Source of the DNA: Geobacter sp. SVR
Lineage (GTDB): Bacteria; Desulfobacterota; Desulfuromonadia; Geobacterales; Pseudopelobacteraceae
Length of the DNA: 64,000 bases
Direction: 5' to 3'
Assembly: GCF_016865365.1 (NCBI RefSeq)
Contig: NZ_AP024469.1
Location: 1,727,001 to 1,791,000 of the forward strand
Shown here one piece after another: positions 4,821 to 46,216 of this stretch (its first letter is position 1; every line of letters begins with the position of its first letter). Made by a program: the position numbers and the translations under genes. The notes beneath the pieces were generated by a model that saw only the letters and a program-made list of their open reading frames with translations, searched no databases and was not told the DNA's origin.

Positions 4821-6029
4821 TTAAAAGCTTTCTGAGGAGCCGGAAAAGTAAATGGTGCGAGAGAGGAGACTTGAACTCCTATACCTTGCGGTGCCAGATC
4901 CTAAGTCTGGTGCGTCTGCCAATTCCGCCACTCTCGCTCTATTAAAATCAAATACATTCAGGGACTTAATGGATACAGCAGTTCCCGTTGGTGGCACCTT
5001 AAGAACCACATTTGTTACAGATTCGGTCACACCTTCCAGGCACTTTGCCATCTGTGAGAAGGCATGAGGAGCCGTGTGGAGATACCTCTGTGTGGTCTTG
5101 ATGTCTGTATGCCCAAGCCACTCCTGGACCTCCTTTAGGGTCCTGCCTGCTTCCAACAACCTTGAGGCACACGTATGCCTACACGCATGGCGGTCACTAT
5201 CTTCATCTAGGCCCAAGGCTGCTCTCATTGGCAACCACTTGTCCTTCGCCTGTCCTTTGGTGAGGTGGAACGGCTGATCACCCCTTCTTGACAGTATGGA
5301 GTGGACCCTGGAGGTCATAGGGATTGTCCTCGGGAGTGCTGTCTTGTTCTCCCACGATGATAGTGTCCTGAGGTTGAGCCTCATTTCACTGATCAGCTTA
5401 CCTTCCTCATTGCGCTTACCAATGCCAAGAGCCTCAGAGAGTCTGAAGCCGGTGTCAAGGAGGACGGCTGTGAGGTCTGCCATGTCATAGGCCTTATGCT
5501 GAGTGAACCAGCCTAATATTGCAGCCTCTTCCTCTAAAGAGTACACCCTTATGCGGCCCTCAGGTTCCTTTGAGAGAGTGAACTTTGGAGCCTTGAAGTT
5601 GTAGGACTCAGAGGCATGGAGCATGACGGTTCTGAATGCTGCCATGTAGCGGTTCACAGTGCTCTCAGCACATTCCAGTTCCTTACGGAGTTCGGCCTGG
5701 ATCTCACGTACCTTCTTGGTGTCAATGGTGTGAACAGGTGTGCTACCATCTAAGATCTCAGCTACCACATAGGCCTGATTATATGATTGTAGGCCACTCC
5801 GGTTCTTTTGCCAACGTTCAGACCATACATCCTCTATGGCCTTATTTAGTGTGACTACAGGCACCTCAGGTACAACCTGCATCACCTTCTCGTATATCTC
5901 TTTCTGAGCCTTCTTGATGGCGAGAGCAGCCAGCTTAGGATCATCAGTCCCTGTGGACCTGTGAACGTATTGTCCCATGAAGGTAAACTTCATGTAAAGG
6001 ACCTTGCCCCTGAAATAGAGGTTATCCAT
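4821..6029 (-). CDS. int: tyrosine-recombinase integrase that reads through attL into host DNA
   Basis: A 402-residue site-specific recombinase. Numbered from the ATG at 6029 the catalytic set is visible: Arg196 (FRLSEALG), a beta-hairpin Lys near 229, His281 and Arg284 (RHACRHTCASR), His307 (LGHTD) and the nucleophile Tyr316 (QRYLHTA). The start follows AGGGG, 8 nt after the stop of the upstream winged-helix gene. The frame stays open through the attachment core, where it translates as RVAELADAPDLGSG, and then through 23 host-encoded codons to 4821. In the unintegrated phage the frame would instead end 13 codons past the core. Only the extreme C-terminus, beyond the catalytic domain, is changed. 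Confidence 0.93.
   Translation of the reverse strand: MDNLYFRGKVLYMKFTFMGQYVHRSTGTDDPKLAALAIKKAQKEIYEKVMQVVPEVPVVTLNKAIEDVWSERWQKNRSGLQSYNQAYVVAEILDGSTPVHTIDTKKVREIQAELRKELECAESTVNRYMAAFRTVMLHASESYNFKAPKFTLSKEPEGRIRVYSLEEEAAILGWFTQHKAYDMADLTAVLLDTGFRLSEALGIGKRNEEGKLISEMRLNLRTLSSWENKTALPRTIPMTSRVHSILSRRGDQPFHLTKGQAKDKWLPMRAALGLDEDSDRHACRHTCASRLLEAGRTLKEVQEWLGHTDIKTTQRYLHTAPHAFSQMAKCLEGVTESVTNVVLKVPPTGTAVSIKSLNVFDFNRARVAELADAPDLGSGTARYRSSSLLSRTIYFSGSSESF
4853..4937 (-). tRNA. tRNA-Leu(UAG), prophage target
   Basis: A complete 85-nt class II tRNA: acceptor GCGAGAG pairs with CTCTCGC, anticodon TAG lies in CTTAGGA, there is a long variable arm, the T-loop is GTTCAAG and CCA is encoded. Its 5' half (4893-4937) is the phage attachment core. 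The 3' half is host DNA, but everything upstream of its 5' end is now prophage, so the host promoter has been displaced. Confidence 0.95.
4893..4937. repeat. attL core (45-nt direct repeat)
   Basis: These 45 bases recur exactly at 45203-45247 in the same orientation. They cover tRNA-Leu from its 5' end through the anticodon stem-loop. The sequences on either side differ between the two copies, as expected for prophage boundaries. Confidence 0.95.
5015..5031 (+). repeat. candidate integrase arm site, left
   Basis: TTACAGATTCGGTCACA lies 77 bases inside attL and matches, with one mismatch and in the same orientation, a sequence at 45153-45169 lying 33 bases inside attR. A paired flank motif of this kind would suit integrase arm binding, but this copy lies inside the int reading frame, so coincidence is possible. 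Confidence 0.3.
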
Positions 6030-40986: not shown

Positions 40987-41928
40987 TTAAAGTAGTTGTT
41001 TGAAGATCCCCAACAGGATATTCTTGGGAAGCTCTTTGGCAATCACCAGAGCATAGGCAGCCTTCTGTGAGATCCGTAGGGAGAGACCTGCGTAGATACC
41101 AAAGTCCTCACCGGCCTCGATACCCCAACCGGCCTTGATACCCGAACCGGCCTCGATACCCTCACCGGCCTCGATACCCCAACCGGCCTTGATACCCCAA
41201 CCGGCCTTGATACCCTCACCGGCCTCGATACCCGAACCGGCCTTGATACCCTCACCGGCCTTGATACCCTCACCGGCCTCGATACCCCAACCGGCCTTGA
41301 TACCCTCACCGGCCTTGATACCCGAACCGGCCTTGATACCCTCACCGGCCTTGATACCCGAACCGGCCTCGATACCCCAACCGGCCTCGATACCCCAACC
41401 GGCCTTGATACCCGAACCGGCCTCGATACCCCAACCGGCCTTGATACCCTCACCGGCCTCGATACCCCAACCGGCCTTGATACCCTCACCGGCCTTGATA
41501 CCCGAACCGGCCTTGATACCCTCACCGGCCTTGATACCCTCACCGGCCTCGATACCCCAACCGGCCTTGATACCCTCACCGGCCTTGATACCCGAACCGG
41601 CCTTGATACCCTCACCGGCCTTGATACCCGAACCGGCCTCGATACCCCAACCGGCCAACAGGTGAAATTCTACGCTCAGGTGTCCGGTGATGCGTATGTG
41701 ACCTCTGAAGAACAGGGAAGAACCTTTGAAGTCCCCCTGGATCTCAAGGACATCATTGGTGCGACCTGCGTGTTGGATGAGCCATTGTGCGTAACCAGCC
41801 CGATTCTCCGAGGCCAAGGCATCCAGAACAGTTTGATACTCCCCACCTTCAGGGAAGTGATCATTGAACCAACGTGTTCCACCACCACAGGCACCTTTCT
41901 GTTGCAACCATTCCTTTGTGATAAGCAT
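40987..41928 (-). CDS. hexapeptide-repeat beta-solenoid protein, unknown
   Basis: 313 residues. The N-terminal ~90 residues form a non-repetitive domain (ACGGGTRWFNDHFPEGGEYQ ... YAQWLIQHAG, then LFFRGHIRITGHLSVEFHL). Residues 92-271 are 30 perfect tandem hexapeptides AG[WSE]GI[EK], ending in a 40-residue cap. Ile every sixth residue with small residues between fits a left-handed or related beta-solenoid. Residues 3 and 6 of the unit are coupled: W is followed by E (9 of 10), S by K (7 of 8) and E by K (11 of 12). It is the second gene after the RNAP start. The role is unknown; DNA mimicry against a host enzyme is a guess. Confidence 0.8.
   Translation of the reverse strand: MLITKEWLQQKGACGGGTRWFNDHFPEGGEYQTVLDALASENRAGYAQWLIQHAGRTNDVLEIQGDFKGSSLFFRGHIRITGHLSVEFHLLAGWGIEAGSGIKAGEGIKAGSGIKAGEGIKAGWGIEAGEGIKAGEGIKAGSGIKAGEGIKAGWGIEAGEGIKAGWGIEAGSGIKAGWGIEAGWGIEAGSGIKAGEGIKAGSGIKAGEGIKAGWGIEAGEGIKAGEGIKAGSGIEAGEGIKAGWGIKAGWGIEAGEGIEAGSGIKAGWGIEAGEDFGIYAGLSLRISQKAAYALVIAKELPKNILLGIFKQLL
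41116..41655. repeat. 18-bp minisatellite, 30 units in two 15-unit blocks
   Basis: Thirty head-to-tail 18-bp units, in frame, of three main types, encoding AGWGIE, AGSGIK and AGEGIK. Units 1-15 and 16-30 (in protein order) share the same type at 11 of 15 positions, including the first eight in a row, so a 270-bp block has been duplicated and then diverged. Confidence 0.95.
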
Positions 41929-41978
41929 GGGTACATCCTCCTTTTATGGGTTGGGTTAAACGCAATAGGAAAACGCAG

Positions 41979-42148: not shown

Positions 42149-42349
42149 ATGAAAACGTTTTTGCTTGTGGTGGTGATGGTCAGTCTCACGGGCTGTGGTC
42201 CTGCCACCGTTTATCTGAAGCATCCAACAACCGGCGAGGTAAAGAGTTGTCAGGGTGATGTGACTCGGGATTGGGACATCTACGCAGCCGCTGAAGCCTG
42301 TGCAAAAGCACACGAGTCTGCGGGATACAGCAGGGTAGGAAATTACTAG
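42149..42349 (+). CDS. small lipoprotein, rightward cargo gene
   Basis: 66 residues. A lipoprotein signal peptide (KTFLLVVVMVSLTGC) has its lipobox Cys at residue 16, so the mature 51-residue protein is lipid-anchored. TVYLKHPTTGEVKSCQGDV and AAEACAKAHESAGYSRV resemble small lipoproteins found widely in proteobacteria and their prophages. GGGGGGG precedes the ATG. It faces the RNAP gene, with a 14-base gap between stops. Opposite orientation plus its own promoter suggests lysogenic expression, possibly envelope modification. Confidence 0.7.
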   Translation: MKTFLLVVVMVSLTGCGPATVYLKHPTTGEVKSCQGDVTRDWDIYAAAEACAKAHESAGYSRVGNY

Positions 42350-42363
42350 GCACCAGCCTGTAC

Positions 42364-44838
42364 TCAGGCAAAGAAGTACAGGGAGCCCTTCACAGTAGCA
42401 AGGTCCAGGTCCCCCATAGGTGGCACCTTGGGTATTTTCCAATGATGCTCCTCAGGTAACTGTCCCAGGATCTCTGACCTGAAGTTCTCCAGGACGTTCT
42501 CACTGTACTGCTCCACAAAGGTCTCCCTCAGGATAGCTGCCAGTGTATCCACGTTGCAGGCATGAGTGCCAAATGAGTCATGGATCATGGCAAAGTCAGT
42601 GATGCCCTGTTCCTTGCATCTCAACACCGTCCTCATGAGGTGAGAAGCATCCATTGAGTGAACAAAGTTGGGGGCAATTCCATTGGCCTGCTTCCTGTTG
42701 TCCATCTTGTTGGTGTCTGAGGCCAGGGTGAGGCGTACATAGGTTCCACCCCAAAAGGTGTCTATGCGTTTCTCAAGGGTCCTCAGGTACTCTTGGTGCG
42801 CCCTGAATCCCACCGGAGTAGTCCACCACACCGGTATCTCCACCTCAGCACACACCTTGGCAACCTCCTGGAGCCAATCCATAGCATCCCGAGCAGCAAT
42901 AACCACTTGGCCTATGGCTTCCCACAGCCTTTCTGCCAGATAGATGCAGGCCTGGAACACCTCCTTGGTTCCCAAGTATTCAGAGCCCCGCTTCCGCAGC
43001 TCCTGAAGGAGTTGATCCTTGAAGCCGTACTTCTTGGCTCCATAGGGTGAGGTCATGACGGCACGTTTAGCAATACCCCTATCAACCTTGCCCTGCCACA
43101 GCTTTGCCTCCTCACATCCCTCAGCAGCATCCCTGTTCACCATCTCGTTCACCAGAGCGGCTACCCGTTGGTAGATGTCCTGGGGGTGTTCAGCAGGGAG
43201 CAGGTTAACGGCGGCACCCCCTACAGAGTCCTTGAGCATGGCTGAGAAGTGTTGGAGGCCTGAGCAAGTTCCATCCTGGGCTATTGGGAGGTATGACACA
43301 AAGGCTTCAGGACAACCGGTTACATGGGCCTGTGCATATTCAAAGCAGGCAGCCAGGAAACAGAATGGTGAGTCTGCTATTGGCTTACCGTTCTCATCCA
43401 CAGCACACCAGAAGCGTTGTCCATCCAGAGGGTTTTCCGCTGAATCTGTGATTTCCCGCTCATGCTCATCCACCCACTTTATGCGGTCTTCAAACGACAC
43501 CTTGTCCACACCATAGGTATTAGCCAGATGGATCTTCAGCCACTTCAAACCGGTGGCACCTAAGGGTTTACCTTGGGCGAACTGCAAGAGGCCTTTCCCG
43601 AGGTCATCTGACTGAGGATTCACTTGGTTTGGGACCGGATACAGCCGCCCCCTCCAGTCCAGGACATGTGGGAAGTATATCTCCGGTTCATCTGCAAACC
43701 TGGAGGCCAGCCTCAGTTTGGTACACACCGCCGTCCGCTTTGATTTGTTCCTCAGGAACTCCTCATGGACTGTAGCCGCTTTGCGTTTCCATTCGGTGAC
43801 TACCTCGGGAGATACCTGCTTCAGCCGTTCAAATTCTTCATCAGAGGACCAGGGCTTAGGTGGGAGATCCTCTTTGTCCTGTGCGGGGAGATCGGCTAGG
43901 GTAGAGCCGCCCTCCCACAACACGGATGCCACCTCGAATAACCTTTTGTTGATCCTCCAGGGTGTCTCCTGAACGGTGTTCATGGCGTGGTAGACATCAT
44001 CCATCCGGTGAAGTCCAAGTTCAGACAGGGCCTTCTTGTTCCTGGTCTTGATTAGCTTGAACCTCAGAGATGCTGAGTTGCTCAGGTATCCACCACCCTC
44101 AACACCTTCCCATGGCTTAGGGGAGACCACCATGGGCATGAATGATGGTGACAGAAGTTCACACCGCTCATTCACCCTCTCCACCCATTTGACTGCCTTT
44201 TCAGTGCCGGTCAGGTAATACCTATCGTTCACCATAGTCCGTTCAATCAGACCCGTACTGAGGATGCACAGCTCTATCAGCTTGCATCCAATGATCAGCC
44301 TTTCCTCCTGCTCAATCCTGTCGTCATCAATACCCATCTTCCTCTTCTTGAGCATGACAACGGTACGTTTGTGGTGAAATGATGCCATCCTGAGGTCTTG
44401 TTCCATCTTGGAAACGTACCCCTTATGGCTGGATCTGAACTTGGCATACTCATGTTGGTCCATGACCATCCTGGTCAGGTTCAGGGCTGTGGTCTGGAGC
44501 TTCACCATATCCGTGAGAGCGTTCATGCACTCCTTCAGGGTCAGGTAAGCCAGCTCCTCAGGTGTCACCTTGAGCTTGGTCAGGAACTGCCGGACTTGAT
44601 GCATCTTCTGAGAGCCCCGTGTCGGTTTGAGAAAGTCCTCTATGGCTTCCGTCATAGGCTCCATGGACTTTTTCATAATGGCTACACCTGGGGGAAGATC
44701 AGTGACACCAGACTGAAGCTGCTTACGGTACTGGTTCACGCCTGCCTGGACTCCCTCAAACTCCAACTCAATTTGTTGCTGAAGTTTACTCTGCTGCACA
44801 CGGGCCTCCTCTTTCACTTTAGTAAACATGAGTAACAC
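42364..44838 (-). CDS. single-subunit phage RNA polymerase (T7 gp1-like)
   Basis: 824 residues. The T7 catalytic set is intact: motif A DGTCSGLQHFSAML (Asp522, T7 Asp537), motif B KRAVMTSPYGAKKYGF (Lys591 and Tyr599, T7 Lys631 and Tyr639) and motif C IHDSFGTHA (Asp753, T7 Asp812), with the C-terminal YFFA equivalent to T7 FAFA. The specificity-loop region (~680-710) differs from T7, as expected if it reads a different promoter. I keep the upstream start, but the ATG at 44829 is as likely. It would transcribe the three 14-mer promoters. Confidence 0.97.
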   Translation of the reverse strand: MLLMFTKVKEEARVQQSKLQQQIELEFEGVQAGVNQYRKQLQSGVTDLPPGVAIMKKSMEPMTEAIEDFLKPTRGSQKMHQVRQFLTKLKVTPEELAYLTLKECMNALTDMVKLQTTALNLTRMVMDQHEYAKFRSSHKGYVSKMEQDLRMASFHHKRTVVMLKKRKMGIDDDRIEQEERLIIGCKLIELCILSTGLIERTMVNDRYYLTGTEKAVKWVERVNERCELLSPSFMPMVVSPKPWEGVEGGGYLSNSASLRFKLIKTRNKKALSELGLHRMDDVYHAMNTVQETPWRINKRLFEVASVLWEGGSTLADLPAQDKEDLPPKPWSSDEEFERLKQVSPEVVTEWKRKAATVHEEFLRNKSKRTAVCTKLRLASRFADEPEIYFPHVLDWRGRLYPVPNQVNPQSDDLGKGLLQFAQGKPLGATGLKWLKIHLANTYGVDKVSFEDRIKWVDEHEREITDSAENPLDGQRFWCAVDENGKPIADSPFCFLAACFEYAQAHVTGCPEAFVSYLPIAQDGTCSGLQHFSAMLKDSVGGAAVNLLPAEHPQDIYQRVAALVNEMVNRDAAEGCEEAKLWQGKVDRGIAKRAVMTSPYGAKKYGFKDQLLQELRKRGSEYLGTKEVFQACIYLAERLWEAIGQVVIAARDAMDWLQEVAKVCAEVEIPVWWTTPVGFRAHQEYLRTLEKRIDTFWGGTYVRLTLASDTNKMDNRKQANGIAPNFVHSMDASHLMRTVLRCKEQGITDFAMIHDSFGTHACNVDTLAAILRETFVEQYSENVLENFRSEILGQLPEEHHWKIPKVPPMGDLDLATVKGSLYFFA

Positions 44839-45202: not shown

Positions 45203-45247
45203 GCCAGATCCTAAGTCTGGTGCGTCTGCCAATTCCGCCACTCTCGC
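45203..45247. repeat. attR core (45-nt direct repeat)
   Basis: Exact copy of 4893-4937. It is the 5' half of tRNA-Leu without the variable arm, T-arm or 3' acceptor strand, so it is a tRNA fragment left with the original host upstream sequence. Confidence 0.95.
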
Positions 45248-45534: not shown

Positions 45535-45611
45535 CTCTGAAAGGGCAAACCCAGGGGAACCTGGGGACGCAAAGCCACGGGTCCAGTTCCGGATAGCCGG
45601 GTTGCCGAAAA
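45535..45611 (+). ncRNA. GEMM-I cyclic-dinucleotide riboswitch aptamer
   Basis: The conserved GEMM-I blocks are present in order: AAAGGGCAAACC, a short P1b hairpin closed by CCAGG/CCTGG, GGGACGCAAAGCCACGGG with the GNRA-receptor region, a TCCAGTTCCGGA-type stem, and TAGCCGGGTTGCCGA. The base equivalent to G20 of the Vibrio Vc2 aptamer appears to be G, which favours c-di-GMP over cGAMP. That reading is by eye only. It controls the receiver gene downstream through the following terminator. Confidence 0.88.
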
Positions 45612-45721: not shown

Positions 45722-46216
45722 GTGTTGAGTTACAGTGCAGCCCCGATTTCTCTTTTGTATGTGGAGGACGACATAGTCACCGGGATGATCCTTCACCGGA
45801 TCCTTTCCAGCACCTTTTCCCACCTCGTGATTCACACCGCCCACAGCGGAGAGGATGGGATCAAAATGTATCGGGAGCACGGCCATGATATCGTTGTGAG
45901 CGACATCATGATGCCGGGCCTCGACGGGATGCAGATGGTACGTGAGATACAGCGCCTGGCCCCGGAAACGCTCTGTATCTTTACAACGGCCAAGACCGGG
46001 GACGCGAATTTCCTGGTTCAGGCGCAAAAGCTCAGCCGCATGCGTCTCTATTTCAAGCCCACCGACTGTTCCGAACTTATCCGTGGCATCAGGGAATGCA
46101 TCGACACCATCATGACCAGAAGAAGCAGAACCCTGCTTTTCAGCATGAACTTTCAGGGAGCCGTGGCGGACAACAGAGTAACGAGACGCGCCCGTCAATC
46201 CCGATTCTCCCTATAG
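45722..46216 (+). CDS. stand-alone response-regulator receiver protein under riboswitch control
   Basis: 164 residues, GTG start after GGAGG. CheY-like receiver: acidic pair in YVEDDIV, phospho-acceptor Asp in DIVVSDIMMPGLDG, Thr in CIFTTAKTG and Lys in LYFKPTD. After the domain comes only a short basic tail (RRARQSRFSL), so there is no output domain. It must act through a partner protein. Preceded by a GEMM riboswitch, which links its level to a cyclic dinucleotide. Confidence 0.88.
   Translation: MLSYSAAPISLLYVEDDIVTGMILHRILSSTFSHLVIHTAHSGEDGIKMYREHGHDIVVSDIMMPGLDGMQMVREIQRLAPETLCIFTTAKTGDANFLVQAQKLSRMRLYFKPTDCSELIRGIRECIDTIMTRRSRTLLFSMNFQGAVADNRVTRRARQSRFSL

Follow-up and report, generated by a model that had tools for sequence, protein, structure and literature searches.

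What kind of protein is built from thirty copies of one hexapeptide, and why is its variation confined to the same two positions of each copy? The question is raised by a gene of Geobacter sp. SVR located in a 64,000-nucleotide (64-kb) stretch of DNA, hereafter the window. A preliminary description had reported 30 perfect AG[WSE]GI[EK] hexapeptides at 40987-41928, a non-repetitive N-terminal domain, and a position just after an RNA polymerase gene. All three observations hold: the units occupy residues 92-271 and are encoded on the minus strand, the N-terminal domain is predicted to be helical, and the polymerase ORF lies upstream on the same strand. The relevant features are as follows.

40987-41928, minus strand: whole repeat gene, 313 aa, ATG start (open reading frame; Shine-Dalgarno box; N- and C-terminal parts conserved in relatives)
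41937-41942, minus strand: Shine-Dalgarno box AGGAGG, ending 8 nt 5' of the ATG (the sequence itself)
41758-41928, minus strand: N-terminal helical domain, residues 1-57, YdhT-like (NCBIfam NF007410; AF2 pLDDT ~97)
41656-41757, minus strand: solenoid entry coils, residues 58-91, degenerate repeats (AF2 strands; FFAG motif conserved in A1)
41116-41655, minus strand: array of 30 perfect 18-nt/hexapeptide units, residues 92-271 (unit parsing; Tandem Repeats Finder)
40987-41115, minus strand: C-terminal cap, residues 272-313 and stop codon (conserved in relatives)
42364-44838, minus strand: single-subunit (T7-type) RNA polymerase, 824 aa (PF00940, E 3.2e-130; PHROG 414, E 4.9e-257)

The hexapeptides are contiguous and 30/30 fit the pattern; its third and sixth positions are called x1 and x2 below. 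The array is written with six distinct 18-mers, with the x1-x2 combinations EK (11 units), WE (9), SK (7), SE, WK and EE (one each). The codons for A, G, G and I are invariant (GCC GGT .. GGT ATC). Tandem Repeats Finder, applied to the 64-kb window, assigns the repeat gene a period of 18, 30.6 copies and a score of 808; the remaining two arrays score 63 and 51. Because the unit is 18 nt long, the repeat region is also open in other frames (176 aa on the plus strand, 190 aa on the minus strand), and the AG frame is the one with both ends conserved among relatives. The protein has no match over the curated cut-off in Pfam or NCBIfam, and no match in PHROGs at E up to 1.

The gene resides in a T7-like prophage. 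A 45-bp direct repeat, whose first copy lies within a tRNA-Leu gene, delimits a 40-kb element.

4893-4937, no strand: attL, copy of the 45-bp direct repeat inside tRNA-Leu (4853-4937) (repeat search and tRNA call)
45203-45247, no strand: attR, second copy of the 45-bp repeat (repeat search)

The prophage encodes an integrase, terminase, major head protein, head-tail adaptor, tail proteins and a ligase. It also encodes a DNA polymerase, primase-helicase, endonuclease, T7-type ssDNA-binding protein and the single-subunit RNA polymerase. The region 4821-45247, with a T7-like layout and an integrase and inserted in tRNA-Leu, has the appearance of a lysogenic relative of T7-like phages. Downstream of the phage RNA polymerase, the first recognisable gene is the repeat gene, and this gene order supports the early-region location suggested previously. 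Between the two, on the opposite strand, there is a 66-aa ORF with a start that by eye resembles that of a lipoprotein (42149-42349, plus strand). Just beyond attR, at 45535-45610, we observed a c-di-GMP-I-GGC riboswitch (68.1 bits, gathering threshold 59); it lies upstream of a response regulator-like ORF (45722-46216, judged by eye). A paralogue with 57 units, L002, is present elsewhere in the same genome, separated from a gene for an AAA_24 ATPase by one small ORF; by eye it looks like part of a second prophage.

By sequence similarity the window gene is a member of a phage family. A scan with the window protein found relatives encoded in 178 IMG/VR stretches, of which 80, corresponding to 79 loci, were kept; these loci were collected with search patterns containing W. 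Another 27 matching stretches were found in GTDB contigs, with record titles naming Bacillota, several Pseudomonadota, Planctomycetota, Verrucomicrobia, Elusimicrobia, Omnitrophota, Acidimicrobiaceae, Dependentiae and others. The first 100 residues, compared with 57 genomes (the window's own and its relatives), matched in its own genome alone.

Two N-terminal types occur in the family. A profile search with the N-terminal domain, as proposed in the preliminary description, revealed a relationship with E. coli YdhT (NCBIfam model NF007410, residues 3-53, E 2e-5). This equivalog model gives the window protein 21.5 bits over residues 3-53 only, and its 300-bit whole-protein score is not reached. 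The same model matches 13/26 members scanned at E up to 1, with the best value of 8.4e-8. Past its N-terminal domain, YdhT itself contains a nine-residue SxGxxxRI-like repeat. A class of phage proteins with perfect SSGxxA[QKR]IG nonapeptide units carries either the YdhT-type domain or DUF7666, the latter in 4/7 nonapeptide members scanned. The phage proteins L099, L109, L114 and L117 have DUF7666 (PF24703) in place of the YdhT-type domain, joined to an array of variable nonapeptides. ORF-55 of Edwardsiella phage GF-2 (L084, 8001-9047) combines the YdhT-type N-terminal domain with variable nonapeptides; it is annotated as 'putative collagen-like protein' and matches Pfam Collagen. The ydhT gene is present in 5367/5426 E. 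coli genomes, and at least 80% of it is covered in 5362. No match in E. coli genomes was found for the DNA of L112 (near mode) or for the DNA of the GF-2 N-terminal domain (distant mode).

Several betaproteobacterial homologues have degenerate hexapeptides. L142, L143, L145, L146 and L148 (8001-8873 in each) are exactly 290 aa long and have the same ends; L086 and L087 are further betaproteobacterial homologues with degenerate repeats. These genes are apparently chromosomal or on megaplasmids, and are possibly domesticated. By eye they have no conserved neighbour, apart from one common to L145 and L146. In a Paraburkholderia copy (L154, 8001-8381) the array is broken: the hexapeptide pattern disappears after the first units and the frame stops at 126 aa. 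Among the literature matches listed, no function was found for the unit peptides, phage repeat solenoids, GF-2, DUF7666 or YdhT, and none of the six unit peptides was found in the literature searched.

The main observation concerns the distribution of variation within arrays. We considered 77 distinct arrays, each with six or more units (1624 units in total), with identical and shorter arrays dropped; this set differs from the one used for the analysis of charge spacing below. Averaged over arrays, the heterozygosity within an array is 0.483 at the first and 0.588 at the second base of the x1 codon, and 0.500 at the first base of the x2 codon. The third base of x1 has a value of 0.200, the three fourfold sites have 0.033-0.038 and the fixed nonsynonymous sites 0.023. 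Both x1 and x2 exceed the fourfold heterozygosity in 77/77 arrays, and fourfold variation is zero in 53/77, although the related arrays are not independent of one another. Between arrays the fourfold sites are free, since the consensus Ala codon differs (GCT in 32 arrays, GCC in 25, GCA in 15, GCG in 5). Within arrays, the same x1 residue is encoded by the same codon in 3988/4051 unit pairs (W and M excluded). Arrays contain two to five recurrent kinds of x1, often including W, and x2 is E or K. Thus the new feature is that variation is focused on three amino-acid-changing nucleotides per 18-nt unit, the silent sites being fixed.

As the search patterns contained W, the ubiquity of this residue is partly a result of ascertainment. 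We therefore analysed arrays retrieved by N-terminal queries only, a set that overlaps the first (18/33 loci had an array, 17 of them distinct). Here x1 and x2 exceed the fourfold sites in 17/17 arrays, and W occurs at x1 in 15/17, compared with 77/77 in the pattern-found set. L165 and L179 have no W at x1, which in L179 is limited to G and D. The nonapeptide class (33 arrays) has a weaker version of the signature: 0.634 and 0.511 at the variable codons versus 0.118 and 0.125 at the third bases of the conserved Gly and Ala.

Neutral drift with homogenisation treats all sites alike, and thus the pattern needs either selection for x1/x2 diversity or a targeted mutator. The concentration of variation in three nucleotides of each unit would be expected if a dedicated mutator, for example a diversity-generating retroelement, wrote variants into them. 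However, the adenines of fixed positions hardly vary (heterozygosity 0.010 in ATC and 0.053 in the x2 codon), unlike in adenine mutagenesis, and the window's genome, the only one searched for this purpose, yields 0 matches to reverse transcriptase (PF00078). We regard targeted hypermutation as the least probable of the explanations considered. Alternatively, x1 and x2 could be exposed and unconstrained positions of a passive structural rod or spacer, in which mixing of E and K keeps the rod soluble and in register. The nearly equal totals at x2 (E 799, K 761) fit such a need for stability. On the other hand, relaxed constraint predicts that x1 and x2 vary as much as the fourfold sites, whereas the observed variation is more than 10-fold higher.

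Arrays of close relatives were compared at loci with at least one 95% identical flank, which gave ten distinct contig pairs with complete arrays. Six pairs have identical arrays, one has the same residue order, and three differ, assembly error being the main doubt: short-read metagenome assembly can collapse or scramble perfect repeats, with unit types less affected than their order and number. Several of the seven pairs that agree are probably one phage sampled twice. L040 and L162, with flanks 100/100% identical over 1500 bp on each side, have 23 and 13 units, ten consecutive units being missing. L034 and L135 (flanks 95.6/98.7%) have 17 and 26 units, and L029 and L039 (100% over 308 bp/97.3%) have 18 and 15. 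Leaving aside the variable bases, the main unit template is the same in both members of each differing complete pair; import and local reshuffling are thus equally likely. Among arrays cut by contig ends, the visible part agrees in L014/L022, L014/L152, L015/L189 and L161/L162, and differs in L049/L072 (99.6%), L060/L170, L136/L156 and L048/L161. Turnover is not always fast, since L161 and L162 keep ten visible units alike despite an upstream flank of 96.5% identity. In the nonapeptide class, L094 and L107 (flanks 100/99.7%) have 18 and 14 units.

The differences in unit composition between close relatives also count against a passive rod, which we consider unlikely, though less so than any of the other alternatives. 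The loss of ten whole units from one array, together with the broken array of L154, is what would be expected of minisatellite DNA in a dispensable gene whose protein has no important function; arrays were collected as open frames, and thus the frequency of broken copies lies outside these counts. Such DNA does not account for the excess of amino-acid-changing variation at two positions, nor for the conservation of the end domains in relatives from several phyla. Hence we give the minisatellite explanation very little weight, nearly as little as hypermutation.

The preliminary description had proposed that the repeats build a long regular beta-solenoid, to be checked by structure prediction, and the AF2 models of the window protein and of L142 support this. 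In the model of the window protein, made with an alignment of 23 sequences, the helical domain has pLDDT ~97 and is followed by strands every six residues, whose pLDDT is ~98 at first and has dropped to 65 around residue 230; towards its end the model is unreliable. Since AF2 over-predicts solenoids for perfect repeats, according to a published study (PMC11795689), we also modelled L142, whose repeats are degenerate. The resulting model has mean pLDDT 95.0 and pTM 0.90. Neither model has a PDB match at Foldseek E 0.001. A second look at L142 yielded, in the top rows of the matches listed, left-handed acyltransferase-type chains with Z 18-21 and rmsd ~12 A, followed by the antifreeze beta-helix 3p4g (Z 16.4, rmsd 3.8 A over 204 residues) and tapirin 6n2c (Z 16.3, rmsd 3.8 A over 217 residues). 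Structure aligners of this type tolerate mirror topology. We take 3p4g and 6n2c to be right-handed and the acyltransferase-type chains to be left-handed; on this model, the family would differ from the left-handed hexapeptide transferases LpxA and GlmU. The fold is therefore predicted to be a right-handed three-sided beta-solenoid. The right-handed matches with low rmsd are those of the L142 model; the PDB matches listed for the window model have rmsd ~11-12 A. Among BFVD viral structures, nine matches reach E 0.001; the named ones are uncharacterised, except for a fragment of herpesvirus ORF71, which appears to be a chance match. The PDB chains 9e5c, 5vj4 and 8uut, found as profile matches, were rejected as compositional upon inspection of the alignments. 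A resemblance to the FapA-type right-handed beta-solenoid is suggested by the match of its Pfam model (PF03961) to L142 (E 1e-6), below the cut-off (29 of 31 bits). However, the same Pfam model has no match in the window protein, and the phage context and the perfect, variable units also set the family apart. Bactofilins presumably have a comparable right-handed beta-solenoid; they are not among the fold matches listed, and their absence there is no evidence.

The spacing of charges supports the solenoid independently of AF2. It was analysed in 77 non-redundant arrays of at least 10 units (1654 units; at least 70% perfect, near-duplicates dropped). At a distance of one 18-residue turn (lag 3), like charges at x2 are avoided: 0.482 versus 0.523 (z -3.26, p 0.001, uncorrected; twelve lags had been viewed earlier, lag 3 being the one predicted by the solenoid model). 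The avoidance is observed in 54/77 arrays (sign test p 0.0005), and in the same arrays it is absent at lags 1, 2, 4, 5, 6 and 9. Position x1 has no lag-3 signal (z 0.1), and shows weak unexplained signals at lag 5 (z 2.9) and lag 7 (z 2.3). Avoidance of stacked like charges is also what a passive rod would need, and the mixture of E and K may have to do with solubility or packing instead of recognition.

The two variable positions had also been described as strongly coupled, as if selected for a patterned charged surface. W and E are indeed coupled in the window array (Fisher p 3.5e-5), as they are in the L002 paralogue (p 3.4e-8). Coupling as the rule behind a patterned surface is not supported, since over 77 arrays its direction is inconsistent: the mean log-odds is 0.04, with values above +1 in 20 arrays and below -1 in 23, and universal W-E coupling was rejected on these grounds. 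Association of x1 and x2 within units is frequent (z above 2 in 33/70 arrays), as expected when whole units duplicate.

The charge of the arrays also bears on the earlier suggestion of a DNA mimic. Known mimics with pentapeptide repeats, Qnr and MfpA, are right-handed beta-helices with a strongly negative surface. The early-region position and the predicted solenoid would suit an inhibitor of one conserved host machine acting by surface mimicry, for instance of DNA, as a gyrase or restriction inhibitor resembling the pentapeptide proteins or Ocr. However, the net charge of the window array is only -4 over its 180 residues (30 units); in the family the mean is -0.30 per hexad, and 13/77 arrays are neutral or positive. 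Because of this charge we reject the DNA mimic. Further, the unit has six residues and not five, no Pfam pentapeptide match was found, and a conserved target leaves the diversification unexplained. Inhibition of a conserved host machine is thus improbable.

At 35 loci, the neighbours of the family genes were sampled from ORFs of 130-600 aa that lie within 3.5 kb in the same direction; the longest of these, no more than four per locus, gave 114 proteins. Among the best 25 of 174 PHROG and 25 of 69 Pfam families, none is matched by more than 4/114 proteins. These families include several anti-repressors; the annealing proteins Sak4, Erf, RecT and Gp2.5; exonucleases, HNH nucleases, a helicase, methyltransferases and one Sf6-type small terminase. 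The immediate neighbour is co-directional in 52/69 cases upstream and 58/74 downstream. The repeat gene is directly preceded by an antiterminator N (N-like) gene in GF-2 and by an antirepressor gene in phiKX1. Gene order and neighbours thus point to an early or regulatory setting.

As x1 and x2, which are predicted to be exposed, appear to be kept diverse while the units probably recombine, a re-assorting recognition surface is the most likely explanation. We favour, at somewhat better than even confidence, an early, non-virion phage recognition scaffold, whose re-assorting surface is under diversifying selection in an arms race against a partner that itself varies. The protein would begin with a small helical domain, continue as a right-handed beta-solenoid with three sides and end in a C-terminal cap. 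One hexapeptide would form each face of the solenoid, the fixed A, G, G and I building the coil, and x1 at the corner and x2 on the face would make up the exposed surface. Recombination between units would add, delete and reshuffle them, homogenising the silent sites, and selection would maintain the diversity at x1 and x2. Candidate partners include host factors, defence components and rival phages. That the gene acts early, that recombination causes the pattern, that the surface binds and that its partner is an antagonist are inferred. In a more specific version, the units could constitute a modular recognition code, each hexapeptide using x1 and x2 to read a single element of a target that is repetitive or a surface, with specificity retuned by recombining units, much like in TAL effectors or fungal allorecognition receptors. 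This version seems doubtful to us, about as improbable as the inhibition of a conserved host machine.

In TAL effectors, helical 34-residue repeats read DNA through repeat-variable diresidues. The likeness lies in two variable residues within otherwise fixed units and in the variable unit number; the phage models, by contrast, show beta strands every six residues rather than helical DNA-reading repeats. The nonapeptide proteins are comparable in that the YdhT-type N-terminal domain is found in both YdhT and GF-2, set positions hold the variation and the GF-2 gene is in an early region. They differ in the nine-residue unit and in the other C-terminal part, and ydhT is a stable gene of E. coli. 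An evolutionary parallel comes from the WD40 repeats of the fungal het-d/het-e (HNWD) genes, for which two reports (PMC1805685, PMC2873952) describe concerted repeat evolution, a few residues per repeat under diversifying selection, and unstable arrays. In the phage family the units are likewise near-identical and homogenised within arrays, and a few codons per repeat have an excess of amino-acid-changing variation. As for instability, unit number or order differs in 3/10 complete-array pairs with near-identical flanks and does not in 7/10, with assembly error possible. However, the WD40 repeats belong to a fungal STAND protein whose role in allorecognition has been tested, whereas the phage protein is a predicted beta-solenoid with no Pfam match over the cut-off. 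Thus, by analogy, the phage family may work like HNWD at the evolutionary level, without being a member of it.

If this explanation is true, phages use, on another fold, the kind of evolutionary process described for fungal allorecognition genes. The family would then lend itself to experiments on this process, since its units are very small and vary at three nucleotides, its alleles can be counted, and nature supplies a series of arrays that could be exchanged. A first hypothesis would also be at hand for proteins that are now labelled hypothetical or collagen-like, and the family would point to a variable target, possibly a defence component, in bacteria of several phyla.
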